From assembly GCF_000830005.1 (NCBI RefSeq), contig NZ_CP010407.1:3515001-3579000 (forward strand): 64,000 nucleotides of DNA, read 5' to 3'. Positions 5,908-37,831 of the stretch are shown piece after piece. Origin of the DNA: Streptomyces vietnamensis (GTDB taxonomy: Bacteria > Actinomycetota > Actinomycetes > Streptomycetales > Streptomycetaceae). Position 1 is the stretch's first letter, and every line of letters starts with the position of its first letter. Made by a program: the position numbers and the translations under genes. The notes beneath the pieces are model-generated. The model was given only the letters and a program-made list of their open reading frames with translations, searched no databases and was not told the DNA's origin.

Positions 5908-7056
5908 TCAGAGGCGGCGCGCGCCCGCCGCCGGGACCACCGGGAAGATCCCGGGGGCCGTGTACCCGGCCTCGGCGAAGGCCTTCCCGACGGCGGCGGA
6001 CACCGCCTCCGCCCGCTCGGCGTCGACGAGGACGACGGCCGAGCCGCCGAAGCCGCCGCCGGTCATCCGGGCGCCGAGCGCCCCCGCCGCGTTCGCCGCC
6101 TCGACGACCAGGTCCAGCTCGGGGCAGGAGACCCGCAGATCGTCCCGGAGGGAGGCGTGGCCCTCGGTGAGGACCGGGCCGACGGCCCGGGTGGCGCCGG
6201 CGTCGAGCAGCGCGATGGTCCGCTCGACCCGGGCGTTGTCGGAGACGACGTGCCGCACGTACCGCAGAATCGTCTCGTCGTTCAAACGTGCGAGCGCTTC
6301 GGGCGGATGCGCGGCGCTCACTTCGCGCAGGGTGGTGACGCCGAGCGCCCGCGCACCCGCTTCACACCCGGCGCGCCGCTCGGCGTACGCGCCGTCCCCG
6401 AGCGCGTGCTTCACGCGGGTGTCGACGACGAGCAGCTGGAGCCCCTCGCGCGCCAGGTCGAAGGGGACCTGACGGTACGAGAGGTCCCGGGTGTCCAGAT
6501 GGAGCGCGTGGCCCTCCTCCGCGCAGGCGGAGGCCATCTGGTCCATGACGCCGCAGGGCACGCCGACGAAGGCGTTCTCGGCGCGCTGGGCGAGCCGGGC
6601 GAGCTCGGGACGGGAGAGCCCGAGCCCGAACAGGTCGTTCAGTGCGAGCGCGGTGACGACCTCCAGGGACGCCGAGGAGGAGAGCCCGGCGCCGGTCGGA
6701 ACGGTCGAGGCGAGGTGGACGTCGGCCCCGGCGACCGGGTGACCGGCCTCCCGCAGCGCCCAGACGACCCCGGCCGGGTAGGCCGCCCAGCCGCCGCCGG
6801 AGAGCGGCTCCAGGGCGTCGACCTCCAACTGGACGATCCCGCCGTCGACATCGGCGGAGTGCAGGCGCAGGACGCCGTCCTCGCGGCGGGAGACGGCGGC
6901 GACGGTGGTGTGCGGCAGCGCGAGCGGCAGCACGAAGCCGTCGTTGAAGTCGGTGTACTCCCCGATGAGGTTGACCCGCCCGGGGGCGGCCCAGAGGCCG
7001 TCGGGCGCGGCGCCGTACAGCGCCTCGAAGTCGGCGGCGACACTCGTCGACGTCAT
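5908..7056 (-). CDS. galK: Galactokinase
   Basis: This 382-residue GHMP kinase phosphorylates galactose to galactose-1-phosphate, the first step of the Leloir pathway. The galactokinase signature [16 protein letters not shown] starts at residue 26, and the ATP-binding GHMP motif [11 protein letters not shown] and the C-terminal [10 protein letters not shown] motif are present. The ATG at 7056 has AGGAAGG upstream and overlaps the galE stop codon (ATGA), so the two are translationally coupled. It is the last gene of the galT-galE-galK operon. Confidence 0.95.
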
Positions 7057-8039
7057 GGCCGCGGTCCTTCCTGCTGTCGGGCGAACGCCCAGGCGTCGGC
7101 GACGACATCGGCCAGGTCCGGGCGGGACGGCGTCCAGCCGAGCCGCTCGCGGGCGGCCTCGGCGGAGGCGACCAGGACGGCCGGGTCGCCGGGACGGCGC
7201 TCGGCGGTGGTCTCCGGGATCGGGTGGCCGGTGACCTTGCGCACGGTCTCGACGACCTCGCGGACGGAGAAGCCGTTGCCGTTGCCGAGGTTGCAGACCA
7301 GGTGCTCGCCGGCCGGCACGGCGCCGTCGGTCATCGCGTCGAGGGCCAGGAGGTGGGCCTCGGCGAGGTCGGCGACGTGGATGTAGTCGCGGACGCAGGT
7401 GCCGTCCGGGGTCGGGTAGTCCTCGCCGTACACGGAGATCGCCTCGCGCCGGCCGAGGGCGACCTGCAGGACGAGCGGGATCAGGTGGGACTCGGGCTCG
7501 TGCCGCTCGCCGAGCGCGCCGTACGCCCCGGCGACGTTGAAGTAGCGCAGCGAGACGGCGGCCAGGCCGTGGGCGGCGCACTCCCCGCCGATCATGTGGT
7601 CGACGGCCAGCTTGCTCGCCCCGTACGGGCTGGTGGGCGCGGTCGGCGCGGTCTCGGTGATCGGCACGGTCTCCGGCTCGCCGTAGGTGGCGGCGGTGGA
7701 CGAGAAGACCAGCCTGCGGACCCCGGCGGCGCGCATGGCGGCGAGCAGGGCCATGGTGCCGCCGACGTTGTTCTCCCAGTACTTCTCGGGCTTGGCGACC
7801 GATTCGCCGACCTGGGAGCAGGCGGCGAAGTGCAGGACGCCGTCGTAGGAGCCGTCGAGCCACCGCGCGGCGTCCTGGATGCGGCCCTCGACGAACTCAG
7901 CGCCCTCGGGGACGGCTTCGGCGAAGCCGGTGGAGAGGTCGTCGAGGACGGTGACCCGGTGGCCCCGCTCCAGGAGGTGGGCGGCGACCACGCTGCCCAC
8001 GTACCCGGCCCCTCCCGTCACCAGATACTTCCGCGTCAT
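7053..8039 (-). CDS. galE: UDP-glucose 4-epimerase
   Basis: This 328-residue extended SDR interconverts UDP-galactose and UDP-glucose. The NAD-binding motif [10 protein letters not shown] lies at residues 7-16, the catalytic serine region is [11 protein letters not shown] and the catalytic YxxxK is YGASK. The length is normal for bacterial GalE. Its start overlaps the galT stop and its stop overlaps the galK start, so the three genes are read as one coupled unit. Confidence 0.95.
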
Positions 8040-9283: not shown

Positions 9284-9963
9284 AAGGAGCCGCGCTGCCC
9301 CGGCACCGCCCGGTCGAGCAGCCCCGTACGGGCCGCCAGGGCCGCCGCCTCAAGGCGCGAACCGACCCCCAGCTTCATCAGCACCCGCTGCACGTGCGTC
9401 CGCGCCGTGCTCGGCGCGATCCCCATGCCCGCCGCGATCAGCCGGGTGTCCTCGCCCTCCGCGACCCGCACCAGGACCTCCACCTCCCGCTGCGTGAGCA
9501 GCCGGAGCAGCCGCTGCGCCTCGTCGTCCGGCTGCGCCGAAGGGTGCAGCAGCTCCGCGAAGGCCCCCTGGAGCAGCTGCGGCGCCACCGCCGCCTCCCC
9601 CGCCCGCGCCTTCACCAGGGCGCGCTCGACGCCCTCGATGCGCTCGTCGTGGCGGACGTACCCCGAGGCCCCGGCCGCGAACGCCGCCGCGATCCCCCGC
9701 GGCGAGGGCACCGGGCCGAGCACCACGACGGCCACCTGCGGCCGCTCCCGCTTGATCCGTACGACCGGGTCGAAGGTCCCCGGCGCGTCCGGCGCCGCCG
9801 TGCCGAGGAGGCAGACCTCCGGCGCCCGGCCCACCACCAGCTCCGCGGCCCCCGCCACCGGCGCGGCCGCCGCGAGCACCCGGTGCCCGCGCAGCTTCAG
9901 CGCCGAGGCGAGTGCCTCCGCGAGCAGGCGGTGGTCGTCCACCACCACGAGGCGTACGCCCAT
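9280..9963 (-). CDS. LuxR-family regulator with degenerate receiver domain
   Basis: This 227-residue protein has response-regulator architecture. The receiver begins MGVRLVVVDDHR (D9/D10 kept), but the phospho-acceptor position is glycine (CLLGTAAPD, Gly54) and the usual lysine region reads GYVRHD, so normal phosphorylation is unlikely. The C-terminal LuxR helix-turn-helix is intact (LTQREVEVLVRVAEGE, APSTARTHVQRVLMKLG). I prefer the ATG at 9963 because GGGGGG sits 9 bases before it; the ATG at 9972 is almost on top of that site. Atypical receivers like this are often controlled by ligand or protein binding. No kinase is nearby and the target is unknown. Confidence 0.85.
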   Translation of the reverse strand: MGVRLVVVDDHRLLAEALASALKLRGHRVLAAAAPVAGAAELVVGRAPEVCLLGTAAPDAPGTFDPVVRIKRERPQVAVVVLGPVPSPRGIAAAFAAGASGYVRHDERIEGVERALVKARAGEAAVAPQLLQGAFAELLHPSAQPDDEAQRLLRLLTQREVEVLVRVAEGEDTRLIAAGMGIAPSTARTHVQRVLMKLGVGSRLEAAALAARTGLLDRAVPGQRGSF

Positions 9964-26021: not shown

Positions 26022-27770
26022 GTGACCAGTACCGCACCCGAGGCCCTGGAGGGCCAGCACCCCGTGGCGGCGCCCGTGGCAGAGCCCTCTTCATGGCAGC
26101 AGAGGCTGCGGCGCTTCGGCTACGTGCCGCCCGCCGGAGAGCCGATCGGGCTGCGGGAGCGGCTCGTCCCCCCGTACACCCGGCCGTCCGAGCGGACGTG
26201 GTCGCTCCTCGGCATCGGCCCCGGCGGCGCCGAGCGGCTGTGGCGGCTGCTGGCCTGGGGCGGTCCGCTCCTGGTCACGGCGGTCGCGGGCCTGCTGCGG
26301 TTCTGGAACCTGGGCAAGCCGCACGCGGTGATATTCGACGAGACGTACTACGCCAAGGACTCCTGGGCCCTGATCAACCAGGGGTACGAGGGGGCCTGGC
26401 CGAAGGACATCGACAAGACGATCCTGAAGGACCCGGGGTCGGTCCTGATCCCGACCGACCCCGGCTATGTCGTGCACCCGCCGATGGGCAAATGGGTGAT
26501 CGGCGTCGGCGAGAAGCTCTTCGGCTTCGAGCCCTTCGGCTGGCGCTTCATGGTGGCGCTGCTCGGCACGCTGTCCGTGCTGATGCTGTGCCGGATCGGC
26601 CGCCGCCTGTTCCGCTCGACGTTCCTGGGCTGTCTGGCGGGCCTGCTGCTCGCCGTCGACGGGCTGCACTTCGTGATGAGCCGCACGGCGCTGCTCGACC
26701 AGGTGCTGATGTTCTTCGTGCTCGCCGCCTTCGGCTGCCTAGTCCTCGACAGGGACCGGACGCGGGCGCGGCTCGCGGCCGCGCTCCCCGAGGACGAGGA
26801 GGGCGTGCTCCGGCCGGACGCGGAGATCGCGGAGGGCCTGCGCCTGGGCTGGCGGCCGTGGCGCCTCGCGGCCGGTGTCTCCCTCGGTCTCGCGGCGGCG
26901 ACCAAGTGGAACGGCCTGTACGTGATGGTGGGCTTCGGCCTGCTCACGGTCCTGTGGGACGTCGGCGGCCGCCGCACGGCCGGCGCGGTCCGCCCGTACC
27001 TCGCGGTGATCAAGAAGGACCTGGTCCCGGCGTTCGTGTCGGTGGTGCCGGTGGCGATCGGGACGTACCTGGCGACCTGGACGGGGTGGCTGGTCACCGA
27101 CAAGGGCTACTTCCGGCACTGGGCCGAGGACCACGACAAGGCGGTCGGCGGCGGCACCTGGGGCTGGCTCCCGGACTGGCTGCGCAGCCTCTGGCACTAC
27201 GAGTCCGAGGTGTACACCTTCCACGTCGGCCTCACCTCGCCGCACACCTACCAGTCGAACCCCTGGTCCTGGATCGTCCTCGGCCGCCCCGTCTCGTACT
27301 TCTACGAGTCCCCCGCCCCCGGCACGGCGGGCTGCCCGGCCACCGCGAAGGAGAAGTGCGCCCAGGAGGTCCTGGCCCTCGGCACCCCGCTCCTGTGGTG
27401 GGCGGCGTGCTTCGCGATCCTCTACGTCCTGTGGCGCTGGGCCTTCCGCCGCGACTGGCGCGCGGGCGCGATCGCCTGCGGCATCGCGGCCGGCTGGCTC
27501 CCCTGGTTCCTTTACCAGGAACGCACCATCTTCCTTTTCTACGCGGTCGTCTTCGTGCCTTTCCTGTGCCTGGCGGTGGCCATGATGCTGGGCGCGATCA
27601 TCGGCCCCCGCGGTTCATCGGAAAGACGCCGGACTTTCGGCGCGGTGGCGGCGGGATGTCTCGTCCTGCTCATCGTCTGGAATTTCATCTACTTCTGGCC
27701 CATCTACACCGGGACTCCCATTCCGATGGACCAGTGGCGGGCGCGGATCTGGCTCGACACCTGGGTGTAG
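26022..27770 (+). CDS. pmt: Protein O-mannosyltransferase (PMT family)
   Basis: This 582-residue polytopic GT39 enzyme transfers mannose from polyprenyl-phosphate-mannose to secreted proteins, the actinobacterial form of dolichyl-phosphate-mannose protein mannosyltransferase. The catalytic acidic motif is VIFDETYYAKD in the first extracytoplasmic loop, followed by about nine further membrane segments. The start is a GTG at 26022 with a weak ribosome site; about 70 cytoplasmic residues precede the first helix. The last 19 codons lie in the attachment site of the downstream integrative element, whose copy restores the reading frame. The ending PIPMDQWRARIWLDTWV is therefore partly element-encoded, while the displaced original end (QWRNRMWLDTWV) is found at 37.7 kb. 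Confidence 0.92.
   Translation: MTSTAPEALEGQHPVAAPVAEPSSWQQRLRRFGYVPPAGEPIGLRERLVPPYTRPSERTWSLLGIGPGGAERLWRLLAWGGPLLVTAVAGLLRFWNLGKPHAVIFDETYYAKDSWALINQGYEGAWPKDIDKTILKDPGSVLIPTDPGYVVHPPMGKWVIGVGEKLFGFEPFGWRFMVALLGTLSVLMLCRIGRRLFRSTFLGCLAGLLLAVDGLHFVMSRTALLDQVLMFFVLAAFGCLVLDRDRTRARLAAALPEDEEGVLRPDAEIAEGLRLGWRPWRLAAGVSLGLAAATKWNGLYVMVGFGLLTVLWDVGGRRTAGAVRPYLAVIKKDLVPAFVSVVPVAIGTYLATWTGWLVTDKGYFRHWAEDHDKAVGGGTWGWLPDWLRSLWHYESEVYTFHVGLTSPHTYQSNPWSWIVLGRPVSYFYESPAPGTAGCPATAKEKCAQEVLALGTPLLWWAACFAILYVLWRWAFRRDWRAGAIACGIAAGWLPWFLYQERTIFLFYAVVFVPFLCLAVAMMLGAIIGPRGSSERRRTFGAVAAGCLVLLIVWNFIYFWPIYTGTPIPMDQWRARIWLDTWV
27714..27740. other. Left attachment site core (attL)
   Basis: The 27-bp identity begins ACTCCCATTCCGATGG and ends GTGGCGG. 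It lies within the last codons of pmt (IPMDQWR region). Sequence left of it is chromosomal; sequence right of it up to the terminator is element-borne but resembles a pmt gene end. Confidence 0.8.
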
Positions 27771-27785
27771 CAGGGGAATTGCACG

Positions 27786-27816
27786 AGGAGGGCGCGACCG
27801 GTGGTCGCGCCCTCCT
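27786..27816 (+). terminator. Terminator after pmt, element-borne copy
   Basis: AGGAGGGCGCGACC pairs perfectly with 27803-27816 across a 3-base loop. A homologous but longer hairpin follows the displaced pmt tail at 37781-37831, so the element brought its own terminator. Confidence 0.8.
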
Positions 27817-28355: not shown

Positions 28356-28362
28356 CGGGAAG

Positions 28363-28423
28363 GGCTTTTCAGAGGGGAGGGACGGCGGCTCACCCTTGGT
28401 CGGCCACCCCCTCCTGAAAAGCC
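28363..28423 (+). terminator. Terminator-like inverted repeat
   Basis: GGCTTTTCAG (28363-28372) pairs with CTGAAAAGCC (28414-28423), and flanking GGGGAGG/CCTCCC runs extend the stem. It starts a few bases after the stop codon of the preceding gene. Confidence 0.5.
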
Positions 28424-28459
28424 TCTCCTACCTCTCGTCCTAGAGAGTTGAGGGGAAAC

Positions 28460-28565
28460 AGCGTCCGCAGCGTCCGCAGCCCTTCCCGTGCCGTTCCTGA
28501 CCTGCGGTTTCCGTGCGGACGCTAAACAAAATGTATAGCGTCCGTCAGCGTCCGCAGCGTCCGCA
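28460..28565. repeat. Repeat module 1: AGCGTCCGC words around CTGACCTGC
   Basis: Two AGCGTCCGC copies (28460, 28469) precede the core CTGACCTGC at 28497-28505. After it come one inverted copy (TGCGGACGCT, 28514-28523) and three direct copies (28537, 28547, 28556). The same word flanks the core at 34551-34662. Confidence 0.85.
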
Positions 28566-28579
28566 AGATCTCCTCTCCT

Positions 28580-28613
28580 CTAAGAGCATCACCCCAGGTC
28601 AGAGCGCTCTTAG
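28580..28613. repeat. Repeat module 2: CTAAGAGC inverted around AGGTCAG
   Basis: CTAAGAGC (28580-28587) and its exact complement GCTCTTAG (28606-28613) enclose AGGTCAG (28596-28602), a shortened, inverted form of the shared core. Confidence 0.75.
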
Positions 28614-28758
28614 AGCAAAGTGGCCGCCGGACGCTAGACCTCCCGTGCCACGCCACCGCGTACAGACAAGAGGAGCACGCCCCCCGCACGGGGTACTCCT
28701 CTTGTCTGTGCGCGGCTACCGCTCAGGGCGTCCTCGGCTCCGAGGGCGGAGCACTGGC

Positions 28759-28870
28759 GCTTGTCTTGTCGCTTGTCTTGTCGCTTGTCGCCCCGCAGGT
28801 CAGAGGACTTAGGCCGCGCCAAGGCCAGCGTGCAGCGCGTCTCCGGACAGGCGACAAGACAAGCGACAAG
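28759..28870. repeat. Repeat module 3: GCTTGTCTTGTC words around GCAGGTCAG
   Basis: GCTTGTCTTGTC occurs twice plus a partial copy (28759-28790), then the core in inverse orientation, GCAGGTCAG (28795-28803), then the complementary words GCGACAAGACAAGCGACAAG at 28851-28870. Confidence 0.85.
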
Positions 28871-29060
28871 GCACGGAGCGCATAGTGGCCGGCCGCACAG
28901 GCAAAAGGAGCACCCCGTCCCGGCGAGGCGGTGCTCCTCTTGTTCTTCGGCGACTTGTCGCCGCCCAAGGGGCGTGCCGCTGTGCGGCTCCCCTTTTCAC
29001 GCCCGAAGGCGCGCACAACAACAGACACAGGCCCCTCTCTTTTTCTTAAGTAGGAACCGC

Positions 29061-29270
29061 TGCGTCACCTGCGTCACCACCGGCCCGAAAACGGCCTCTG
29101 AGCTGCACCGGCAGGGGTGACGCAGAGCCCAAATGCCTGCGTCACCTTGCGTCACCTGCGTCACCCCGTGACGGACGGCTGCGTCACCGGTGACGCAGGC
29201 CCCCACCCCTCTGCGTCACCGAAACCCACAGGTCAACGCCACCGATGACGCTGATGACGCGATGACGCAG
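29061..29270. repeat. Repeat module 4: TGCGTCACC iteron array
   Basis: Seven exact TGCGTCACC copies (29061, 29070, 29138, 29148, 29157, 29180, 29212) and two inverted copies GGTGACGCA (29116, 29189) precede AGGTCA (29230-29235). Three TGACGC words follow. Nine exact 9-bp sites in 160 bp is what a plasmid iteron origin looks like. Confidence 0.85.
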
Positions 29271-29332
29271 AAATCCCCACCTCGGACACACACCGACTGC
29301 CTATCGCCATCCTCGATAGCATCGACTCCCTG

Positions 29333-29425
29333 CACCCCTGCTAGACCTAGCAGTCATTGCCGCTAGGTCTAGCAGGGGTGCTAGCGGCCTATCCGTGGGC
29401 TGACCTGCGGACTAGCATCTAGCAC
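29333..29425. repeat. Repeat module 5 with a 19-bp perfect inverted repeat
   Basis: CACCCCTGCTAGACCTAGC (29333-29351) is exactly complementary to 29362-29380 with a 10-base loop. Then GTGCTAG (29378) and CTAGCAC (29419) enclose the core CTGACCTGC at 29400-29408. CTAG-containing words recur throughout. No gene ends here, so a terminator role is unlikely for the large hairpin. Confidence 0.85.
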
Positions 29426-29498
29426 GAGACAGGCAAGAGCCCCGGTTCGCGGAGGAACTCGGGGCTCAAGGGCCGGGATGGCCCGCTAGCTTCGGTCG

Positions 29499-30746
29499 CT
29501 ACTGCGGCAGAAATCCCGGCTTCTCTCGCCCGAGCGCCTGGAGGCGTGCGAGGTAGTCCTGGGCGGCCGGTTCGGTGCTGTACCGGCGCTTCACTTCTGC
29601 AGCGAGTTCACGGCTCGTCATGATGAGCGAGGGGACCGACTGTCTGTCACCCTGGAGCGCCCGCTCTCCCATGATGAGCGCCTGCTCCAGATCTCCCTCG
29701 CGGGCCGCAGTCACGCCGAGCGTTACCCGCGCCTCCGCGTTGCGCATGGGCGAGCGCTCCGTCCCGTCGAAGTCCGTGCCCGCGCGGAGCACTTCCTCGG
29801 CGAGGTTCCGGGCCAGCTTGTCCTCGCCCACCAGGCGGTAGCAGTCCATCGAGTAGAAGTCGAACTTCGCGGGGTCGACCACGAAGTGGTTGTCCAGGTT
29901 CTCCGGGTGCGGCATCCCTTCGAGCAGCCGCCGGCCTTTGTCGAGGGCGACCTCGACCTGTCGGCGGTCACCGAGCCGCGCCCATGCCTTCGCCTCTTGT
30001 CCCGCGAGCTGCACTGCGACGCCGTGGTGAGCGGCGACTTCCGCACCGGCCTGAGCCGCGGCGATGACTCCCCGGTAGTCACCGGTCGTGAGAGCGAACC
30101 ATGCCCGCATCTCATGCGCCCATCCGGCAACCTCAGCGTGATCCGCCTCCGTGGCGATCGAGAGCGCCGCCCGGCGCGTCGACTCAGCCGCGTGGCGGTC
30201 GCCAGAGTCGTACTCCACGCAGCCCACGAGCAGAGCCAGCCACCCGGAGAGCGCCAGCACCTCCCGATGCTGAGCAAGGGTGAGGCTCTTCGAGTGCAGC
30301 TCTACAACCCTGCGGAGCCACTGACGACCCTCGATCAGCAACTGGCTGCTCGGCATGAACGGGTACTCGGAGCAGAGGCGGTCTGTCGTGATCCGCAGGG
30401 CGTCGAGCGTCGCATTGTCGACGTCGGACCGGTTGAGTCGACTGACGATCTCCAACGTCTCCATACCGCTCGCCGCCAAGATCTCGCTGTCCCCGTCCCG
30501 CCGAGACGGCGCCGGGAACAACGCGTTCGTCACAGTGCCGAACACGGCCGCGATGATGGGGCGATAGAAGTCGTTCGGGAGAGCGCCGGCCTCCCACCGC
30601 TTCCACTGCCGGATCATGCTGTCGTCGGACGGGAGCTCCGAGGGGGCATGGGCCCGAAGAGCCCTCACCGCATCCCGTTGTGACCAGTCGCGCGCCGCTC
30701 GCTCACCAGCGATGCGCCGTGCCCATGCAGGCCTGTCGTCGCCCAT
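29499..30746 (-). CDS. XRE-type regulator with TPR-like C-terminal part
   Basis: In this 415-residue protein, residues 10-85 form a helix-turn-helix-like domain (WSQRDAVRALRAHAPSELPSD, then MIRQWKRWEAG). The remainder is alpha-helical with tetratricopeptide-like repeats (LALSGWLALLVG, AGWAHEMRAWFALTTGDY, VTLGVTAAREGDLEQALIMGERAL). This layout is common among Streptomyces regulators that may sense a peptide or small ligand through the TPR part. It is transcribed leftwards and shares a promoter area with gntR upstream. Its likely job is control of the element; its targets are unknown. Confidence 0.75.
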   Translation of the reverse strand: MGDDRPAWARRIAGERAARDWSQRDAVRALRAHAPSELPSDDSMIRQWKRWEAGALPNDFYRPIIAAVFGTVTNALFPAPSRRDGDSEILAASGMETLEIVSRLNRSDVDNATLDALRITTDRLCSEYPFMPSSQLLIEGRQWLRRVVELHSKSLTLAQHREVLALSGWLALLVGCVEYDSGDRHAAESTRRAALSIATEADHAEVAGWAHEMRAWFALTTGDYRGVIAAAQAGAEVAAHHGVAVQLAGQEAKAWARLGDRRQVEVALDKGRRLLEGMPHPENLDNHFVVDPAKFDFYSMDCYRLVGEDKLARNLAEEVLRAGTDFDGTERSPMRNAEARVTLGVTAAREGDLEQALIMGERALQGDRQSVPSLIMTSRELAAEVKRRYSTEPAAQDYLARLQALGREKPGFLPQ

Positions 30747-30862
30747 GTGCCCTCTCTTCCGAGTGCTTACCGCGAGTCTGGCCGATCGACCGGGGGGACA
30801 CGCAAGGGACAGTCCGGGGACACCGGTGCCGTCCCCTCGTCCGCAGAGATGCCACTACATGT

Positions 30863-30874
30863 GCCACTAGTGGC
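30863..30874. promoter_or_regulatory. 12-bp perfect palindrome upstream of the XRE/TPR gene
   Basis: GCCACTAGTGGC contains the ACTAGT centre also found in the GntR operator at 31293-31318, with a partial extra GCCACTA copy 12 bases to its left. It may be a second GntR site controlling the XRE/TPR gene. Confidence 0.45.
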
Positions 30875-30906
30875 CCATACTCCGTCTCCATCAAGCTAGG
30901 CACAGA

Positions 30907-31236
30907 TCAAGCACGGCCTGACTCGGAGCGCCCCTCCAGCGCTGCGACTCGTTCAGTCAACGCCTGAATCTGGGAGCGGATTTCCTTGAGCTCGTCGTCC
31001 TTATCGACCGCCTCACCACCACTCACGAAGTTACCCATGTTCCCTGCCGAGATGATCGCCCCCTCAGTACGCAGGATCGCGAGACCGTTCTGGATGGTCT
31101 GGCCGGCGAAGCCAAACCGCTCGACCAACTCCCTTTGGGTAGGCAGCCGCTCGCCGGGCTTCATCTTCTTGACTTCCTCGCGGAGCGCATCGGCCACCTG
31201 AGCGGCCTTCGACTTCGGAACCCCAGTGCCAGTCAT
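30907..31236 (-). CDS. Short GntR-family repressor
   Basis: This 109-residue protein consists of a GntR winged helix (residues 8-75: KAAQVADALREEVKKMKPGERLPTQRELVERF, shown here in pieces as VADALREEV and LPTQRELVERFG) followed by a heptad-like coiled coil (LKEIRSQIQALTERVAALEG). It lacks an effector domain, as do KorSA-type repressors of Streptomyces integrative elements. Divergent from the replication operon and adjacent to a 26-bp palindrome, it is probably an autoregulated repressor of element excision or replication. Confidence 0.8.
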   Translation of the reverse strand: MTGTGVPKSKAAQVADALREEVKKMKPGERLPTQRELVERFGFAGQTIQNGLAILRTEGAIISAGNMGNFVSGGEAVDKDDELKEIRSQIQALTERVAALEGRSESGRA

Positions 31237-31261
31237 GCCCTGAGGGTACCCACTAGAGCGA

Positions 31262-31318
31262 ACTAGTGCACGCTATTGCGCAACGCTTGACGACTAGCGT
31301 GCACTAGTGCACGCTAGT
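31262..31318. promoter_or_regulatory. GntR operator: 26-bp perfect palindrome plus an extra half-site
   Basis: Bases 31293-31318 form a perfect 26-bp palindrome centred on ACTAGT, with arms ACTAGCGTGC. The half-site ACTAGTGCACGCTA occurs in it (31303-31316) and again at 31262-31275. TTGACG (31287-31292) abuts the palindrome and could be the -35 box of the rightward operon promoter, so a bound repressor would block it. Confidence 0.7.
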
Positions 31319-31361
31319 TAACAGATCGAGCCCAGCAAGACCGGGCCCGACCAAAGAGAAA

Positions 31362-31382
31362 CCCCTGGTCAGAGGCCAGGGG
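31362..31382. repeat. Degenerate core-like inverted repeat
   Basis: CCCCTGG (31362-31368) and CCAGGGG (31376-31382) enclose TCAGAGG, so GGTCAGAG is again framed by an inverted word as in modules 2 and 3. It lies in the leader of the rightward operon and could also be an attenuator hairpin. Confidence 0.4.
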
Positions 31383-31448
31383 ATAGCAGGGAGCGGCGCT
31401 CGCGGCCAAGCAAAGTCACCGCTCCCCGACCCACGAAGGGGTACTCCC

Positions 31449-31838
31449 ATGATGCCTGTTTCCCTTGCTCTGCGGTTAGCCGGTCGCCCGGTCGGCGGTC
31501 ACGTCGACGCGTTCGGCGCCCCCGACCCGAACGAGCCGGTGCGGATCAGCGTCCCCGTCACGGCGCACGTGTCGTTCGCGGAGCTGCTGACGCTGCTGGT
31601 GACGACCCCGGGTGTGTGCCTGGACTACGCGGACCTGGTCAAGGACGACGTCGTACGCGACTCGGTGCGGTTCGCGCTGATCACCACGGACCTCCTCTCG
31701 CTGGACCAGCGGTCCGAGCGCGTCATGGCCGTCTACCGGGGCGACGCGCCCGGGAGCCACGCCCTGCCGCCGTTCGAGTACCTGCGGTGCGTCGGCTCCG
31801 CGATCACCCGCGTGTTCGGAGTGGAGGCGGCGCTGTGA
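31449..31838 (+). CDS. Hypothetical protein, first gene of the element's rightward operon
   Basis: This 129-residue protein has no recognised domain. It contains VRISVPVTAHVSFAELLTLL and a conserved-looking tail PPFEYLRCVGSAITRVFG. A GAAGGGG ribosome site lies eight bases before the ATG pair at 31449/31452. Its stop codon overlaps the GTG of the next gene, placing it in a tightly coupled four-gene operon with HTH, HNH and ATPase genes. Confidence 0.65.
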   Translation: MMPVSLALRLAGRPVGGHVDAFGAPDPNEPVRISVPVTAHVSFAELLTLLVTTPGVCLDYADLVKDDVVRDSVRFALITTDLLSLDQRSERVMAVYRGDAPGSHALPPFEYLRCVGSAITRVFGVEAAL

Positions 31839-32287
31839 CGATCGCACCCGAAACCCCGTTGAACCTGCCCGCCCCGACGCCCGTCGAGGGCAACCTGCGG
31901 CTGGCGGCAGCCATCGTCGAGGCCGACCTGACCTACGCCGAACTCGCCGAACAGCTCCAGGTCGACCCCAAGACCGTGGAACGGTGGGTGAACGAGCCCG
32001 GACGCCGCCCCTACGCCCGTCACGCCCACGCCGTCGCCCGCGCCCTGGGAACGACCGTGTGGGACCTGTGGCCCGCCATGCGGCCGAAGGAGCTGGCCCC
32101 GCAGGCGCCCGCCGTGGTGCCGGTGCCGCCGGTCCTGCTGGCGGCCGCCCGGGACGCGCTGAGCCGGGTCGAGAACCTCGACCTCGGCACGGCGAGCCCG
32201 ACCGCCATGGCCATGCACCTGGGTTCCCTGTCCGCCGCGCTGCGGACCGTGCTCGATCTGGTCGACGTCTCCGGGGTGACCGGATGA
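31835..32287 (+). CDS. Helix-turn-helix protein
   Basis: This 150-residue protein has an XRE-like helix-turn-helix at about residues 30-80 (LTYAELAEQLQVDPKTVERW, then ARHAHAVARALGTTVWDLWP). This motif pattern is widespread in Streptomyces regulators. The C-terminal part is helical (LLAAARDALSRVENLDLG). The GTG start overlaps the previous stop (GTGA) and its stop overlaps the next start (ATGA), so it is co-translated with both neighbours. It may act on the element's origin or promoters. Confidence 0.75.
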   Translation: MTIAPETPLNLPAPTPVEGNLRLAAAIVEADLTYAELAEQLQVDPKTVERWVNEPGRRPYARHAHAVARALGTTVWDLWPAMRPKELAPQAPAVVPVPPVLLAAARDALSRVENLDLGTASPTAMAMHLGSLSAALRTVLDLVDVSGVTG

Positions 32288-32841
32288 GCCTGCACGCCTC
32301 TCCGCGGCTCAACGCCGCCCGTCGTCGCGGCCGCAAGGCGCAGCTCGCGGCCCGCGACGGCTGGCGGTGCGCCTACTGCCGGCACCCGTTCAAGGACCTT
32401 CGTGAGGCGACGATGGACCACGTCGTGCCGATCTCGCTCTACCGGACGTGGTCCGCGAACGCCCTCGTGCTCGCCTGCCAGCCCTGCAACCACATCAAGG
32501 CCGACCGACTGTTCCTCTCGCTCGCGCTGCTGCTCGTCTGGTCGACCGGCCCCGTGTTCACGGGTGTTCAGCCGACCGACGCCCCGACCGACCTGCCGTC
32601 CCCTGCGCCCGACCCGTCGGCCGACTCGGAGCCGATCCGGTTCGGGCCGGATCAAGTCGACTGGCTGGCGCTCGCGCGGATCGTTCACGCCCGTTCATCG
32701 GCCGCACGGTCTACCGCTGACCAGGCAAAGCATCGCGAACCGGCCGAGCGTCGCGTGCGGATCGGTCGACTCGACCAGCGGCGGCGTGCGGCCCGGATGA
32801 ACACCTGTGAGCAGTCGACCGATCGAGGGGTGAGCGCGTGA
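32284..32841 (+). CDS. HNH endonuclease-fold protein
   Basis: This 185-residue protein has a complete HNH finger: CAYC (C29, C32), then MDHVVPISLY (H46), N59, and CQPCNH (C65, C68, H70). Such small HNH proteins nick or cut DNA; in phages they assist terminase, and in elements they may open an origin. The basic C-terminal half (RRVRIGRLDQRRRAAR) could bind DNA. It is coupled by 4-base overlaps to the HTH gene before and the ATPase gene after. Restriction, packaging interference and origin nicking are all possible. Confidence 0.8.
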   Translation: MSLHASPRLNAARRRGRKAQLAARDGWRCAYCRHPFKDLREATMDHVVPISLYRTWSANALVLACQPCNHIKADRLFLSLALLLVWSTGPVFTGVQPTDAPTDLPSPAPDPSADSEPIRFGPDQVDWLALARIVHARSSAARSTADQAKHREPAERRVRIGRLDQRRRAARMNTCEQSTDRGVSA

Positions 32842-34502
32842 ACAGCACCACCAAGCCGGTGAACGGGACCGCCCGACCGACCGGTCCCGACCGGTCGGTC
32901 GACCCGGCGCCCGTGAACACCGGGCAGTCGGCCGTGAACACCGGACGGGGAGCGGTGAACACGCGCCCGCCGGTCGACGACGGGGGCAAGAAGCCGTCGG
33001 CCGCCGTGCGGCTGGTCGCCCTCGCCCGTGAGCGGTACCGGTTCGTCATGTCGACCGACGGCCGTCCCTACGCGGTCGCGGTCGACGGCCCGAACGTCGC
33101 CCTGCCCCTGCGGGGTCGGTCCGGTGTCCGGCAGCGTCTCGCCCGCCTGTACGCGGAGACGTTCGACGGCGACGTGGCCTCGCAGTCCGCGCTGGCGGAC
33201 GCGATGACCGTGCTGGAGGGAATCGCCGAGTCGGACGACCCGGTACAGGTGCACCTGCGGGTCGGGCACGACGACGCCGGGACGATCGTGGTCGACCTCG
33301 GCACCGCCGACGGTCGCGCGGTCACCGTCACCGCCGGCGGCTGGCACGTCGTCGAGCGCTCCCCGGTCCTCTTCCGCCGGTCCGGGGCCATGGCACCCAT
33401 GCCCGCACCGGTCCTTCTCGGCGACGGGCTGTCCATGCTCCACAGCCTGCTGAACATGGACGAGTCCGCCTTCCGCCAGCTCGTCACGTGGCTGATCGCC
33501 GCGTGGATGCCGACCATCCCCCACCCCGTCCTCACCTTCAAGGGCGAGCAGGGCACCGGGAAGTCCGCCGCCGCGCAGATGATGGTCAACCTGATCGATC
33601 CCTCCCCGGCCGCGAAGCGCTCGCAGCCCCGGGACATCAAGGTGTGGGCCACGCAGGCGTTCAGCTCCTGGGCCCTGTGCCTGGACAACATCTCCGCCAT
33701 CCCCCCGTGGCTGTCGGACACCCTGTGCAAGGCCGTCACGGGCGACGCGATCGTGGACCGGGCCCTCTACACCGACGACGACGTCGTGGTCCTCTCCTTC
33801 CGGCGCGTGCTGGCCATGACGACCATCGACGCCGGAGCTCTCGCCGGAGACCTCGCCGAGCGACTGCTCATGCTCGACCTCCAGTTGATCGAACCGGAGC
33901 AGCGGCGTACGGAGGAGGAGTTGGCGACCGCGTTCGAGACGATCCGGCCGGCCGTCCTCGGCTCGCTCTTCGACCTCCTCGCGTCCGTCCTCGCCGTCCT
34001 GCCGCACGTGAAGCTGGACGCGCTCCCGCGCATGGCCGACTTCGCCCGCGTCCTCGCGGCCGTCGACCAGGTCATGGAGTGGACGACGCTGGACGACTAC
34101 CTCGCCGCGTCCGCGAACGTCGCCGGAGACGCCCTGGAGGGCGACCCGTTCGGCGCCGCACTCGCCTCCCTGGTGGAGCAGTGCGGCACGTGGACCGGGA
34201 CTGCCGCCCAGCTCCTGGAGCACGTCCCGCCTCCGGGCGGCATCCGGCCGCCCACGTGGCCCAAGGACGCCACCCGCGCCAGCGGGAAGGTCAAGCGCCT
34301 CGCCCCGCTCCTGCGGTCGATCGGCATCACCGTGGACGACACGCAACGTAGCCAGGACCGGCACCGCAGCAGGCTCCTTGTCCTGACCCGGACCGACCTC
34401 GCACAGGAGACAGCGTCCGCAGTGTCCGCGCCCCCGACCGGCCCTCTCTGGCCCGACGTGGCTCCGATCGGTCAGGGGGGCACGGTCCCTGACCTGGACT
34501 GA
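32838..34502 (+). CDS. AAA+/helicase-like ATPase, probable replication protein of the element
   Basis: This 554-residue protein has a Walker A GEQGTGKS at residues 236-243, a Walker B-like WALCLDNIS near 280, and an arginine-rich SFRRVLAMTTID segment downstream. The order resembles primase-associated superfamily 3/AAA+ helicases of phages and plasmids, although no primase domain is visible. Residues 1-55 are low-complexity (APVNTGQSAVNTGRGAVNT) and are encoded by repeats that may themselves be binding sites. The end of the gene contains two AGCGTCCGC/AGTGTCCGC words like those of the repeat modules. It is the fourth gene of the coupled operon. Confidence 0.7.
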   Translation: MNSTTKPVNGTARPTGPDRSVDPAPVNTGQSAVNTGRGAVNTRPPVDDGGKKPSAAVRLVALARERYRFVMSTDGRPYAVAVDGPNVALPLRGRSGVRQRLARLYAETFDGDVASQSALADAMTVLEGIAESDDPVQVHLRVGHDDAGTIVVDLGTADGRAVTVTAGGWHVVERSPVLFRRSGAMAPMPAPVLLGDGLSMLHSLLNMDESAFRQLVTWLIAAWMPTIPHPVLTFKGEQGTGKSAAAQMMVNLIDPSPAAKRSQPRDIKVWATQAFSSWALCLDNISAIPPWLSDTLCKAVTGDAIVDRALYTDDDVVVLSFRRVLAMTTIDAGALAGDLAERLLMLDLQLIEPEQRRTEEELATAFETIRPAVLGSLFDLLASVLAVLPHVKLDALPRMADFARVLAAVDQVMEWTTLDDYLAASANVAGDALEGDPFGAALASLVEQCGTWTGTAAQLLEHVPPPGGIRPPTWPKDATRASGKVKRLAPLLRSIGITVDDTQRSQDRHRSRLLVLTRTDLAQETASAVSAPPTGPLWPDVAPIGQGGTVPDLD

Positions 34503-34550
34503 CACCGCCGGACCGGGCCGCGAAATAGCGGCCCGGACACGGCCGGAGCT

Positions 34551-34662
34551 GCGGACGCTACAGCCGTCCAGTGTCCGCAGCGTCCGCCCTAGCGTCCGCA
34601 CCTCTCACAGTCTCTGACCTGCACGAACGATTGAGTGCGGACGCTAGGGGGCTGCGGACGCT
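34551..34662. repeat. Repeat module 6: AGCGTCCGC words around CTGACCTGC
   Basis: Left of the core CTGACCTGC (34614-34622) stand one inverted and three direct 9-bp words (34551, 34570, 34579, 34591); right of it two inverted ones (34636, 34654). The word is the same as in module 1, 6 kb away. The module lies between the ATPase gene and the excisionase gene. Confidence 0.85.
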
Positions 34663-34743
34663 GCGATACACCGAATCTCTAGGACGGCTACCGGCACCAC
34701 TCCCACCCCGCCCCACGCCGGACACGAGGAGTAACCAACTCTC

Positions 34744-34965
34744 ATGGTCAGCAAGCCGATCGAGACCCTGCGCGCCGGGCTTCCGGACCGCTATCTCACC
34801 CCCGAGGACATCGCAGCGATGTTCGCCGTCCCTATCGAGACCGTCTACCACTGGCGCAAGCAGCGCACCGGCCCGCCCGGTTTCCGTGTCGGCCGCCACG
34901 TCCGCTACGACCCTGCTGCTGTCCGCACCTGGGTCCAGCACCAGGAAGCCACCGACGCCGCCTGA
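34744..34965 (+). CDS. xis: Excisionase-like helix-turn-helix protein
   Basis: This 73-residue protein has a MerR-like helix-turn-helix of the excisionase class: YLTPEDIAAMFAVPIETVYHWRKQ, then GFRVGRHVRYDPAAVRTWV. GAGGAG lies 13-18 bases before the ATG. Small proteins of this kind next to a tyrosine integrase normally act as recombination directionality factors; here about 560 bases of repeats and a tRNA-like sequence separate it from int. Confidence 0.8.
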   Translation: MVSKPIETLRAGLPDRYLTPEDIAAMFAVPIETVYHWRKQRTGPPGFRVGRHVRYDPAAVRTWVQHQEATDAA

Positions 34966-35012
34966 CGCGCCGGCCGAGCGGAAGGTAGAGCCCCTCCCGC
35001 TACCCGTGACGG

Positions 35013-35178
35013 CGTCACACCCCCGTCACGCCCCACCGTCACACCCCCGCCGGAGCCGCTCAGGTAGGGGGAGCCCTTTACCCCGGTAGAGGGGGCGGTA
35101 AAGGTCGCTGACCTGCGAGGTAAGGCGGGTAAAGGGGGCGGAGTCACGGCGGTCACGCCCGCGTCACGGCCGTCACGG
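35013..35178. repeat. Repeat module 7: two nested word families around one core
   Basis: The core CTGACCTGC (35108-35116) is flanked on both sides by GGTAAAGG-type words (left GGTAGAGGGGGCGGTAAAGG at 35085-35104; right two copies within 35119-35141). Outside these, GTCAC words occur on both sides (left near 35013, 35024, 35037; right near 35143, 35152, 35163, 35171). Confidence 0.8.
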
Positions 35179-35238
35179 AGCCGATAACCCCGGGGCGCCT
35201 CGCTCTCACTGGCCCCGGTGGGGCCCGGCGGGCCATGT

Positions 35239-35321
35239 GGCTGCCGCCCGGGATTCGAACCCGGGGTTCCGCAGCCGGGCGAACCGGCGTACGGAGTCCT
35301 CGGCCGCTAGACGACGACAAC
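35239..35321 (-). tRNA. tRNA-like sequence with abnormal anticodon arm (possible pseudo-tRNA)
   Basis: On the minus strand GTTGTCG (35321-35315) can pair with CGGCAGC (35246-35240) as a 7-bp acceptor stem. It is followed by TC, a tRNA-Glu-like D arm (GTCTAGCGGCCGAGGAC) and a T arm with the GGTTCGAATCC consensus. The anticodon region is about seven bases too long and folds as one long stem with a TTCG tip, so no normal anticodon loop is visible; the T stem has six pairs rather than five, and CCA is not encoded in place. It is probably a decayed or repurposed tRNA. Confidence 0.45.
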
Positions 35322-35340
35322 CGCGCGCAGCCTATCCGGC

Positions 35341-35417
35341 CAGGGAGGCAGGGAGAACTCCCTGACCGCCTCCCTGCCGGTGACCTGCACAAAGCCTCAT
35401 CCAGGGAGGCAGGGAGG
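35341..35417. repeat. Repeat module 8: CAGGGAGG words around GTGACCTGC
   Basis: CAGGGAGGCAGGGAG (35341-35355) and the inverted CCTCCCTG stand left of GTGACCTGC (35380-35388); CAGGGAGGCAGGGAGG (35402-35417) stands right. A further inverted GCCTCCCTCCCTG lies near 35472, just before int. Confidence 0.8.
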
Positions 35418-35523: not shown

Positions 35524-36774
35524 ATGGCTGGCCACATCCAAGACCGCTGGTACAAGACCGAGAAGGGCCCCGACGACAAGCCCCGCCGGGTCAAATCCGA
35601 CCGCTACGGCACGGGCATGCGCTACCGGGCCCGATACATCGGCCCCGACGGCACGGAGAAGTCCAAGAGCTTCCCCGACAAGCAGAAGCGCCTCGCCGAG
35701 CTGTGGCTGATCGAGACGGCGGCCGACATGGCGCGGGGACAGTACGTCGACCCACGGGCGGGCCGCGTCACCTTCCGGCAGTTCGCGGAGAAGTGGGTGG
35801 CGACGCACACGACCGAGGTGAACAGCCGCGAGGCCGCCGAGCGAAGGCTCCGCCTGCACGCGTTCCCGTACATCGGGACCAGGCCACTCGCGTCGTTCCA
35901 GCCCGGTCACATCCGCACGTGGCTCGGCGAGTTGGAGTCCAGCGTGCCCGCGGCCTCCCACCGCCGGATCGTCTTCGGCACCGTCTCGGCCGCGTTCAGC
36001 GCGGCCCTGGACGACGGACTCATCTCGAAGAACCCGTGCAAGGCCAAGTCCATCCAGATCCCGAAAGCCAGCCACACCCGCGTCGTCCCCTGGACGGCAG
36101 CCCAGGTGTTCGGCGTGCGGGCCGCCCTGCCGGAGCGTCTGAGGGCCTCCGTGGACGCGGCCGGCGGATGCGGACTGCGGCAGGGAGAAGTCTTCGGCCT
36201 GTCCGAGGACGAGGTGGACCACGACGGCGGCTGGATCTCCGTGGAGCATCAGCTCAAGCGGATCCGGGGCAAGTTCGTCTTCGCTCTCCCGAAGGGTGGC
36301 AAGGTGCGAGACGTGCCCCTTCCTCCGTCCGTGTCGGCCGCGCTTCAGGCGCACTCGGAGCGGCACCCGCCCGTCAAGGTCACGCTCCCCTGGCGAACCC
36401 CCGACGGGCCGCTCGTGACCAAGTCGCTCCTCTTCACCGGGGCGGCCGGCGGCCACATCCGGGTGAGCCACTTCAACGACTTCATGTGGAAGCCCGCTCT
36501 CGCCGCTGTGGGCATCATCCCGGAGCCGGAGGAGGGCGAGCGGTACGCGTCGGCCCCGGAACACGGCATGCACGCCCTGAGGCACTTCTACGCCTCCGTG
36601 CTCCTGGACGCCGGCGAGAACATCCGGGCCCTGAGCCAGTACCTCGGCCACGCCGACCCCGGGTTCACGCTCCGGACGTACACGCACCTCATGTCGAGTA
36701 GCGAGGGGCGGACCCGCAAGGCAGTGGAGAGCCTATACGACTTGTCTCACGAATTCGACAGCGCGTACGAATAG
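35524..36774 (+). CDS. int: Tyrosine recombinase integrase
   Basis: This 416-residue integrase has an N-terminal AP2-like arm-binding region (RYRARYIGPDGTEKSKSF), a SAM-like core-binding domain (TFRQFAEKWVATH) and a complete catalytic domain: R219 in CGLRQGE, K257 in LPKGGKVRDVPLP, H350-x-x-R353 in MHALRHFYAS, H376 in LGHADPG and Y386 in RTYTHLM. It should catalyse integration into the pmt 3' end, whose core repeat lies 0.9 kb downstream. GAGAGGACG precedes the ATG. A hairpin follows the stop codon. Confidence 0.95.
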   Translation: MAGHIQDRWYKTEKGPDDKPRRVKSDRYGTGMRYRARYIGPDGTEKSKSFPDKQKRLAELWLIETAADMARGQYVDPRAGRVTFRQFAEKWVATHTTEVNSREAAERRLRLHAFPYIGTRPLASFQPGHIRTWLGELESSVPAASHRRIVFGTVSAAFSAALDDGLISKNPCKAKSIQIPKASHTRVVPWTAAQVFGVRAALPERLRASVDAAGGCGLRQGEVFGLSEDEVDHDGGWISVEHQLKRIRGKFVFALPKGGKVRDVPLPPSVSAALQAHSERHPPVKVTLPWRTPDGPLVTKSLLFTGAAGGHIRVSHFNDFMWKPALAAVGIIPEPEEGERYASAPEHGMHALRHFYASVLLDAGENIRALSQYLGHADPGFTLRTYTHLMSSSEGRTRKAVESLYDLSHEFDSAYE

Positions 36775-37497: not shown

Positions 37498-37717
37498 GTC
37501 GCCTACTCCACGCCAGTGCCGCTGCTCCCGCAACGGGGATCAAGTGCGCTGGACACCTCGACCACGAGCTGATCACGCGGGCAACCGATCCATGATCACG
37601 GCCCCAAGACGGCCCAGCAGCGCCCGCCAGACTGCGAGCACTGAAGAAATCGCTGGTCACGACCCTAGGGCCGTGGAGTCGCGAGGCTTCATCTACTTCT
37701 GGCCCCTCTACACCGGC
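37498..37717. other. Right-end spacer of the element
   Basis: I see no gene or clear repeat here. The last 31 bases (from 37687) already resemble pmt codons (TTCATCTACTTCTGGCCC is shared with 27684-27701), so attP carried a captured pmt end. Confidence 0.6.
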
Positions 37718-37774
37718 ACTCCCATTCCGATGGACCAGTGGCGGAACAGGATGTGGCTCGACACCTGGGTGTAG
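37687..37774 (+). pseudogene. Displaced 3' end of pmt
   Basis: The last 29 codons of pmt (reading FIYFWPLYTGTPIPMDQW, then RNRMWLDTWV and TAG) stand here without the rest of the gene. The matching end of the intact gene reads RARIWLDTWV. This is the chromosomal tail cut off by integration. Confidence 0.85.
37718..37744. other. Right attachment site core (attR)
   Basis: The sequence is identical over 27 bp to 27714-27740. Beyond it the displaced original pmt end and its terminator follow. Confidence 0.8.
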
Positions 37775-37780
37775 CGGGGA

Positions 37781-37831
37781 GACCACGAGCGGGAGGGCGC
37801 GACCGGTGGTCGTGCCCTCCCGCTCGTGGTC
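37781..37831 (+). terminator. Original pmt terminator
   Basis: A 24-bp stem (GACCACGAGCGGGAGGGC... against 37808-37831) with one G-T pair closes a 3-base loop. Its inner part matches the terminator at 27786-27816. Confidence 0.85.

Follow-up and report, generated by a model that had tools for sequence, protein, structure and literature searches.

A tra-less integrative element of Streptomyces vietnamensis gathers origin-like and transfer-like sites matching other elements and is probably a multi-helper satellite

Introduction

Non-conjugative plasmids of Staphylococcus aureus carry two or three variants of the origin of transfer (oriT) that mimic those of pWBG749-family plasmids, each variant having a fixed core and a variable inverted repeat, IR2, with SmpO as the specificity factor (PMC4652767). 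As described in the available parts of that paper, these plasmids are by analogy the nearest parallel to the subject of this report, an integrative element of about 10.1 kb in a 64,000-nucleotide stretch of Streptomyces vietnamensis DNA (NZ_CP010407.1, positions 3,515,001 to 3,579,000; the whole stretch is called the window, and coordinates are counted from its first base). The element carries seven non-coding modules, in each of which inverted copies of a short word surround a common core. In both systems a fixed core is joined to a variable repeat that appears to set helper specificity, and one non-conjugative replicon holds several variants, each matching a different conjugative subfamily. 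The S. aureus system is relaxase-based, whereas the presumed helper here is an FtsK-like translocase of double-stranded DNA, and here sites of transfer type and of replication type are both collected, with the core common to the two kinds.

Plasmid pWTY27 provides the best experimental reference. It is self-transferable and has one origin and one cis-acting locus of transfer (clt), each served by its own protein. A 300-bp sequence (321-620) is required for replication together with repA and repB, the latter encoding a primase-polymerase (prim-pol); RepA leaves a footprint at 405-509, and a 149-bp piece (382-530) fails to restore replication. The proven clt consists of 16 bp of the tra gene and the next 159 bp (all PMC3583192).

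Dependence on a helper has been considered for several related elements. Salmonella genomic island 1 (SGI1) depends on IncC plasmids as helpers for its replication and mobilisation (PMC7433901, PMC7826253). As predicted for the present element, an integrated element here relies on a helper for both processes; unlike it, SGI1 uses a single helper family and a type IV secretion system. Among actinomycete integrative and conjugative elements (AICEs) and their defective kin, Frankia elements in which tra or rep is missing have been regarded as possible remnants or as possibly mobilizable, and clt-like chromosomal sites are bound by TraB (PMC3218068); it has also been suggested that a helper could mobilise defective AICEs (PMC9513070). 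The available parts of these two papers name no cis-acting basis for this, whereas here we find arrays of apparently helper-specific sites. Reviews of integrative mobilizable elements and hitchers treat other kinds of mobilisation and, in their available parts, describe no such element of a double-stranded TraB system (PMC5704250, PMC11389934). In the open-access text that was available, neither arrays of clt sites or origins in Streptomyces elements lacking tra nor a shared core is described, and a prior mention is possible.

Results

Seven modules share a core and differ in their words

The modules are listed below; plus and minus after a coordinate give the strand of a core.

28460..28636, plus strand: predicted replication origin of the element's own type, word AGCGTCCGC; opposed cores at 28497+ and 28594- (variant), inner pair CTAAGAGC; the word also occurs in Rep relatives
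28760..28871, minus strand: foreign clt-type site, word GCTTGTC; core at 28795-; 17 of 24 places matching the pattern follow a Tra_TTGTC gene
28893..29290, plus strand: predicted foreign replication origin, word TGCGTCACC; cores at 29098+ and 29228- (variants); hairpin upstream, seen by eye
29332..29425, plus strand: foreign clt-type site, word CTAGC; core at 29400+; 78% over 97 bp to positions 5927-6022 of locus L181
34553..34662, plus strand: second copy of the predicted own-type origin, word AGCGTCCGC, directly 3' of rep; one core, 34614+
35063..35136, plus strand: foreign clt-type site, word GGTAAAGG; core at 35108+; the same site follows Tra_L072-class genes
35341..35417, plus strand: foreign clt-type site, word CAGGGAGG; core at 35380+ (GTGACCTGC); 14 of 18 pattern places lie 76-80 bp past a Tra_CAGGG gene

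An earlier note on this DNA had placed exact copies of the core, CTGACCTGC, at 28497+, 28795-, 29400+, 34614+ and 35108+, and all five are there. Variants stand at 28594- (CTGACCTGG, one base off), 29228- (TTGACCTGT, two off) and 35380+ (GTGACCTGC), to which can be added CTGAGCTGC at 29098+ (one off). The claim that five exact copies far exceed chance also held, with 0.216 expected in 10.1 kb (P ~3e-6) on the basis of 200 exact places (115+85) in the 9,153,777-bp genome. Taken alone, the core is barely enriched genome-wide (115+85 places for the core, 81+86 for the reversed control pattern); what is enriched is its combination with flanking words. An inverted 7-mer word with at least three copies in total within 70 bp was found at all five exact cores of the element and at none of 21 ordinary chromosomal cores, which came from 20 stretches within the first 0.96 Mb of the chromosome; with at least four copies it was found at three of the five. 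The comparison with 9-mers of the same composition, which the note had proposed as a check, was run on 76 related loci picked by their Rep or Prim-Pol protein and never by word. Flanking repeats of at least four copies accompany 51 of 116 CTGACCTGC cores and 807 of 47,923 control 9-mers.

The pattern itself needed some revision. The words do differ from module to module, but their copies are inverted across the core and not merely repeated on its two sides. The supposed eight or more places reduce to seven modules, CTAAGAGC (28580 and 28606) being an inner inverted pair in the right half of the AGCGTCCGC module; the same nesting is seen in relatives L003, L005, L006, L007 and L016. That an iteron origin uses one word is true of each module here as well, and the novelty is the collection of sites rather than a word per origin. 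Structured RNAs, another suggested role, found no support: Rfam gave ten matches on the element, all below the gathering scores of their families.

Words of one kind track the replication helicase

A Prim-Pol domain search in 61 genomes supplied loci independently of any word; 60 of the listed matches were taken with their flanks, and a helicase was recognised in 37. In this prim-pol-selected set all 17 loci with DUF3631 helicases have CGCTAC/CGCCAC-type words at the end of the helicase gene or just past it, and 14 of 17 with one D5/P4-type family have AGTCSCT-type words, which in most cases lie upstream of the prim-pol gene. VapE-type helicases are accompanied by TGCGTCACC words in 12 of 13 loci, these being word-selected, and GCGTCCC words occur in pFP11 and pSTS2. 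No module of the listed classes was seen in the 23 stretches without a recognised helicase, except for a tra word in L064; L065 has another word. The Rep-linked words therefore track helicase type. Opposed pairs of cores are common among the loci, mostly 100-230 bp apart.

In the window the AGCGTCCGC words follow the element's own rep, while the TGCGTCACC words, found elsewhere after VapE-type helicases, stand without one. Opposed cores lie outside the presumed Rep-bound words in both cases (28497+/28594- and 29098+/29228-). The proven pWTY27 origin, beside RepA and the prim-pol RepB, likewise has inverted words and opposed cores (PMC3583192); we find CTGACCTGC there at 380+ and 519-, both just outside the RepA footprint, and the core is not mentioned in the available parts of that paper. 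The non-functional piece 382-530 cuts the first core, although the role of the core is unproven by this result because the outer words are missing from the piece too. A blastn search with two pWTY27 repeat words joined by N gave no match. The AGCGTCCGC and TGCGTCACC modules fit replication origins of the same build, their partner and their replication being predicted by analogy with pWTY27, and the varying partner would most likely be the replication helicase. To this extent the earlier suggestion of origins with a shared core-binding protein and varying partners survives; it does not extend to the other four modules, of a type that follows FtsK-like tra genes.

The TGCGTCACC module is 85% identical over 399 bp to a site 3' of the VapE-type helicase gene in L181, an AICE of the same genome with a CTAGC-class Tra, and 70.5-71.7% identical to three plasmid sites. 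Alignments with L181 begin about 19 bp (origin) and 2 bp (CTAGC site) past L181 stop codons. No decay is evident in foreign TGCGTCACC words, with a word mean of 12.0 in eight carriers without that rep and 11.5 in 15 rep-linked loci.

Words of the other kind follow the Tra class

Pattern searches in 199 genomes each gave 24 places for GCTTGTC, 18 for CAGGGAGG, six for CTAGC and four for GGTAAAGG, window included. Reversed-pattern controls gave one, none, many and none respectively, so that the CTAGC control is uninformative. An FtsK/SpoIIIE-like Tra gene lies upstream on the same strand at 37 of the 52 places, and at all 37 the best Tra reference is the class of that word, five of the references having themselves been drawn from these loci. 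Identity between Tra classes is 25-30% and within them mostly 65-90% (40% for L166). Distances from core to tra stop codon are 68-83 bp for TTGTC (once 379), 76-80 bp for CAGGG and 72-75 bp for CTAGC; in L181 the tra stop codon ends at 5925, next to the CTAGC site. The GGTAAAGG site lies 148 bp and 123 bp past Tra_L072-class genes in L185 (the L072 locus) and L186. Both TTGTC and CAGGG words are present with DUF3631 as well as VapE helicases. The tra-linked words thus follow Tra and not the helicase, and our first idea, that every module was a replication origin, was abandoned when GCTTGTC, CAGGGAGG, CTAGC and GGTAAAGG proved to be tra-linked.

Within the prim-pol-selected set, none of the 22 loci with a Tra match shows the word of another class, and the expected word reaches threshold in three of three CTAGC, three of four CAGGG and one of one GGTAAAGG loci. 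The 15 unlinked places include the window's own four and six in known tra-less relatives. In conjugative elements the core-bearing sites lie at the 3' end of tra, where the FtsK-like gene of pWTY27 also has repeated words (PMC3583192), and from this position they look like clt loci; the window element has such sites and no tra gene.

A few observations concern sites of this kind. Several Tra_CTAGC/L183-class sites (L180, L181, L057, L073) have a second half-core like CACCTGCGnAAAC after the right-hand words. Repeats of GTCAC type flank the GGTAAAGG site of the window (35004-35060 and 35143-35178) and could be another helper's word. Further core-bearing modules with GGCCAC-like words occur at L192 7313 and L002 4364. 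In L214, a small rep/FtsK plasmid record resembling a dimer, the CAGGGAGG module with GTGACCTGC is found at 7304 and 15506, far from the tra gene.

Foreign transfer-type sites gather in tra-less elements

The window element holds a predicted origin of its own type twice, one foreign origin-type site and four foreign clt-type sites, together with no transfer machinery of its own. FtsK/SpoIIIE-like Tra was not found in it by Pfam analysis of open reading frames (ORFs), tblastn or a hidden Markov model (HMM) scan; prim-pol was not found either, though the replication ATPase is there, and no relaxase was among the Pfam matches of the ten ORFs scanned. The HMM scan covered 1110 ORFs of at least 150 aa from the window element and 19 relatives and revealed no Tra (best E 0.004) and no prim-pol, while recovering seven of seven positive loci at E<1e-20.

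Selection by Rep alone gave 12 tra-less relatives (L001-L008, L011, L012, L015 and L016), all with at least one tra-word and seven with at least two classes. Adding the window and the word-found L189, L190 and L192 brings these figures to 16/16 and 9/16; L193 and L194 were left out because they repeat L007 and L005, and L094 and L196 because they are of a different kind. With stretches trimmed to 10.5 kb around Rep, 14 of the 15 with this Rep have at least one class and eight at least two. In 49 tra-bearing loci the number of tra-word classes never exceeds one. No tra-word reaches threshold in L009, L010, L013 and L014, four relatives in which Tra and prim-pol accompany the same kind of Rep. 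Site sets differ between relatives whose integrases are 54-94% identical. Rep relatives of the window element occur mostly in named Streptomyces.

The most extensive array was found through its CAGGGAGG site in L200, a 9.4-kb element bounded by exact repeats of at least 30 bp of a tRNA-Arg 3' end. It encodes an integrase and NsdA-like (89%) and GntR-like (74%) proteins resembling those of the window; no tra, helicase, rep or prim-pol was found in it, HMM scan included. About ten site types occupy 3.4 kb, in which codon-bias ORF picking gives no gene, in the following order.

L200 array, first part: GGTAAAGG, CAGGGAGG, TraB type, GTGTGGG, three CGCTAC/CGCCAC-type predicted origins with a second inverted set
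L200 array, rest: GCTTGTC (words only), TGCGTCACC, CTAGC

The TraB-type site matches pWTY27 9842-9911, a stretch within the proven clt, at 81% identity over 70 bp.

A search by Rep alone in 199 genomes added three elements, L215, L216 and L217, with Reps 72-77% identical and all without tra and prim-pol. L215 has TraB-type, CAGGGAGG and TGCGTCACC sites and L217 has CTAGC, GGTAAAGG and TGCGTCACC sites; L216 has no foreign site at threshold and, on closer reading, CAGGGAGG and CTAGC words. Five stretches have Reps 58-60% identical. Four of them (L218-L221) have prim-pol, two of these with TraB as well; in L222, where the Rep match was partial, neither prim-pol nor Tra nor any module was seen. 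L221 gave one weak CTAGC call, which closer reading did not bear out. Three more stretches, L223-L225, carry VapE-type helicases that are 37-39% identical to the references and showed no module. A hairpin, GGCTTTTCAG ... CTGAAAAGCC, was seen by eye adjoining the arrays of different putative satellites (window 28358-28425, L200 at about 7890 and 8765, L216 at about 14020).

Limits and genes of the element

The element occupies about 27.7 to 37.8 kb of the window, between two imperfect repeats that share exact blocks of 27, 22, 21 and 18 bp. The left repeat is the 3' end of the gene upstream, which is putatively mannosyltransferase-like. The repeats and genes of the element are as follows.

27684..27812, no strand: left attachment repeat, 96 of 129 bases identical, ungapped, to 37688-37816
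29499..30746, minus strand: NsdA-family regulator, tetratricopeptide repeat-like, recurring among elements of this sort
30907..31236, minus strand: small GntR-family regulator
31835..32287, plus strand: helix-turn-helix protein
32284..32841, plus strand: HNH protein, immediately 5' of Rep, by gene order in the slot of prim-pol in AICEs
32838..34502, plus strand: replication ATPase (Rep), 554 aa, 40-42% identical to the Reps of pFP11 and pSTS2
34744..34966, plus strand: excisionase-like HTH_17 protein
35524..36774, plus strand: tyrosine integrase, 82-85% identical to the integrases of tra-bearing AICEs L060 and L061
37688..37816, no strand: right attachment repeat, paired with 27684-27812

Like AICEs and their tra-less or defective kin, the element has an integrase, an excisionase-like protein, a replication protein and attachment repeats (129 bp), and it would probably integrate and excise through its integrase and excisionase; no Tra like that of an AICE was found. 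Neither Pfam nor a PDB sequence search with the Rep alignment gave a match for Rep. An HNH gene directly 5' of Rep is also present in the tra-less relatives, at the position of prim-pol in AICEs.

Between two of the clt-type sites lies a tRNA-Arg(tcg)-like gene (35239-35317, minus strand), possibly a trace of nested integration. An attachment site at this gene was considered and dropped, there being no exact repeat of at least 13 bp between 26 and 40 kb. The relatives scanned have no predicted tRNA at this position; L012 4138-4224 is 80% similar.

Discussion

The window element is probably an integrative multi-helper satellite of actinomycete double-stranded-DNA conjugation. It has sites like those of several unrelated helpers and no transfer machinery of its own, its words are linked to particular rep and tra genes in other elements, and such words gather in its tra-less relatives, which suggests that it hitches rides on whichever conjugative element is present. 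Each word would be the address of a single helper protein, Rep or Tra, and the core would be a component common to both kinds of site, placed outside the Rep-bound stretch in pWTY27. With a matching conjugative element active in the same cell, the excised satellite would be copied by that element's Rep, and that element's Tra would bind the word of its class and carry the satellite into a recipient. A satellite that collects many addresses could in this way use whichever helper the cell contains for both replication and transfer. Since CTAGC-class Tra and VapE-type helicase are both present in L181, this AICE is a candidate helper in the same genome.

Several points weigh against this interpretation. 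The core-bearing tra-linked sites are read as clt from position and analogy, and the only proven clt available here, that of the pWTY27 type, has TGACACC words and no core. In the prim-pol-selected set the expected word reaches threshold in only one of five Tra_TTGTC loci (a second, L070, by eye), one of six Tra_L183 loci and none of three TraB-type loci, and the single P4-type locus lacks a called module. No module was called for VapE-type helicases 36-39% identical to the reference (L081, L105, L223-L225). Five of the 15 unlinked places (L126, L128, L134, L140, L162) have no tie to a known tra-less relative. Plasmid L018, outside the 49-locus set, has its own TraB and yet carries foreign words of the TTGTC (GCTTGTC) and CTAGC classes, whose cores are degenerate. 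The GTGTGGG and GGCCAC words have no assigned Tra, no search aimed at one having been made. Word classes and thresholds were fixed after inspection of the data, calls are pattern-based and cover four core-bearing classes only, and automated calls were wrong in both directions (L001 4913 spurious, L002 506 with its core displaced, L216 missed). Loci end at contig ends or at the ends of the fetched stretches, the tra-bearing ones spanning 5.9-14 kb.

Iterons in trans are classic incompatibility determinants. The sites might accordingly form a decoy or incompatibility array that titrates the Rep and Tra of rival elements, excluding them or blocking their transfer, and helper-triggered replication of SGI1 is reported to promote incompatibility and plasmid loss (PMC7433901). 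We nevertheless consider the decoy role, which the earlier note had also raised, unlikely. Tra-bearing AICEs compete as well, yet none of the 49 carries more than one tra-word class; one integrated copy would be expected to titrate weakly; and conservation of the foreign TGCGTCACC segment extends over 399 bp, with undecayed words, which exceeds what a titration site needs. Accretion at a single site is documented in Streptomyces (PMC9513070), and the two foreign sites of plasmid L018 have degenerate cores, so that functionless leftovers of successive integrations may also be envisaged. This is more doubtful still: neither tblastn at 1e-8 nor HMM revealed a tra coding match next to the foreign sites, though short remnants may escape; both alignable copies start just past the stop codons of their counterparts in L181; the TGCGTCACC words have kept their mean; L200 has a single clean att pair around its roughly ten site types; and relatives with similar integrases carry different sets. 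A satellite accounts better than either decoys or remnants for the finding of several tra-words side by side in elements without tra but not in tra-bearing AICEs. It is very improbable that all modules are replication origins whose tra-adjacent words are read by a replication factor, as the core common to both kinds might suggest, given that the tra-linked words follow Tra class across different helicases and sit where pWTY27 has its clt.

On the multi-helper satellite interpretation, we tentatively raise the possibility, which we consider less likely than not, that the core is a strand-initiation (priming) site read by a shared prim-pol in origin and clt alike. If so, replication at clt and FtsK-type transfer would go together in these Tra classes as coupled processes, satellites without prim-pol would retain the core because any helper's prim-pol fires it, and a single class of cis-acting site would join helper specificity, in the word, to common priming, in the core, for replication and transfer.

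Whether one element can hijack the TraB of another was an open question in a 2022 survey of Streptomyces integrative and conjugative elements, the available parts of which also state that no clt has been described for pSAM2 (PMC9513070). The words that apparently set Tra and Rep specificity can now be read in several helicase classes and in at least four Tra classes whose sites bear the core, and some tra-less elements, as a group, seem to be built around the collection of such words. The words offer a code with which to predict which helper moves which satellite. Mobilisation of double-stranded DNA in trans thereby becomes directly testable, as does the shared core in a known origin, that of pWTY27.

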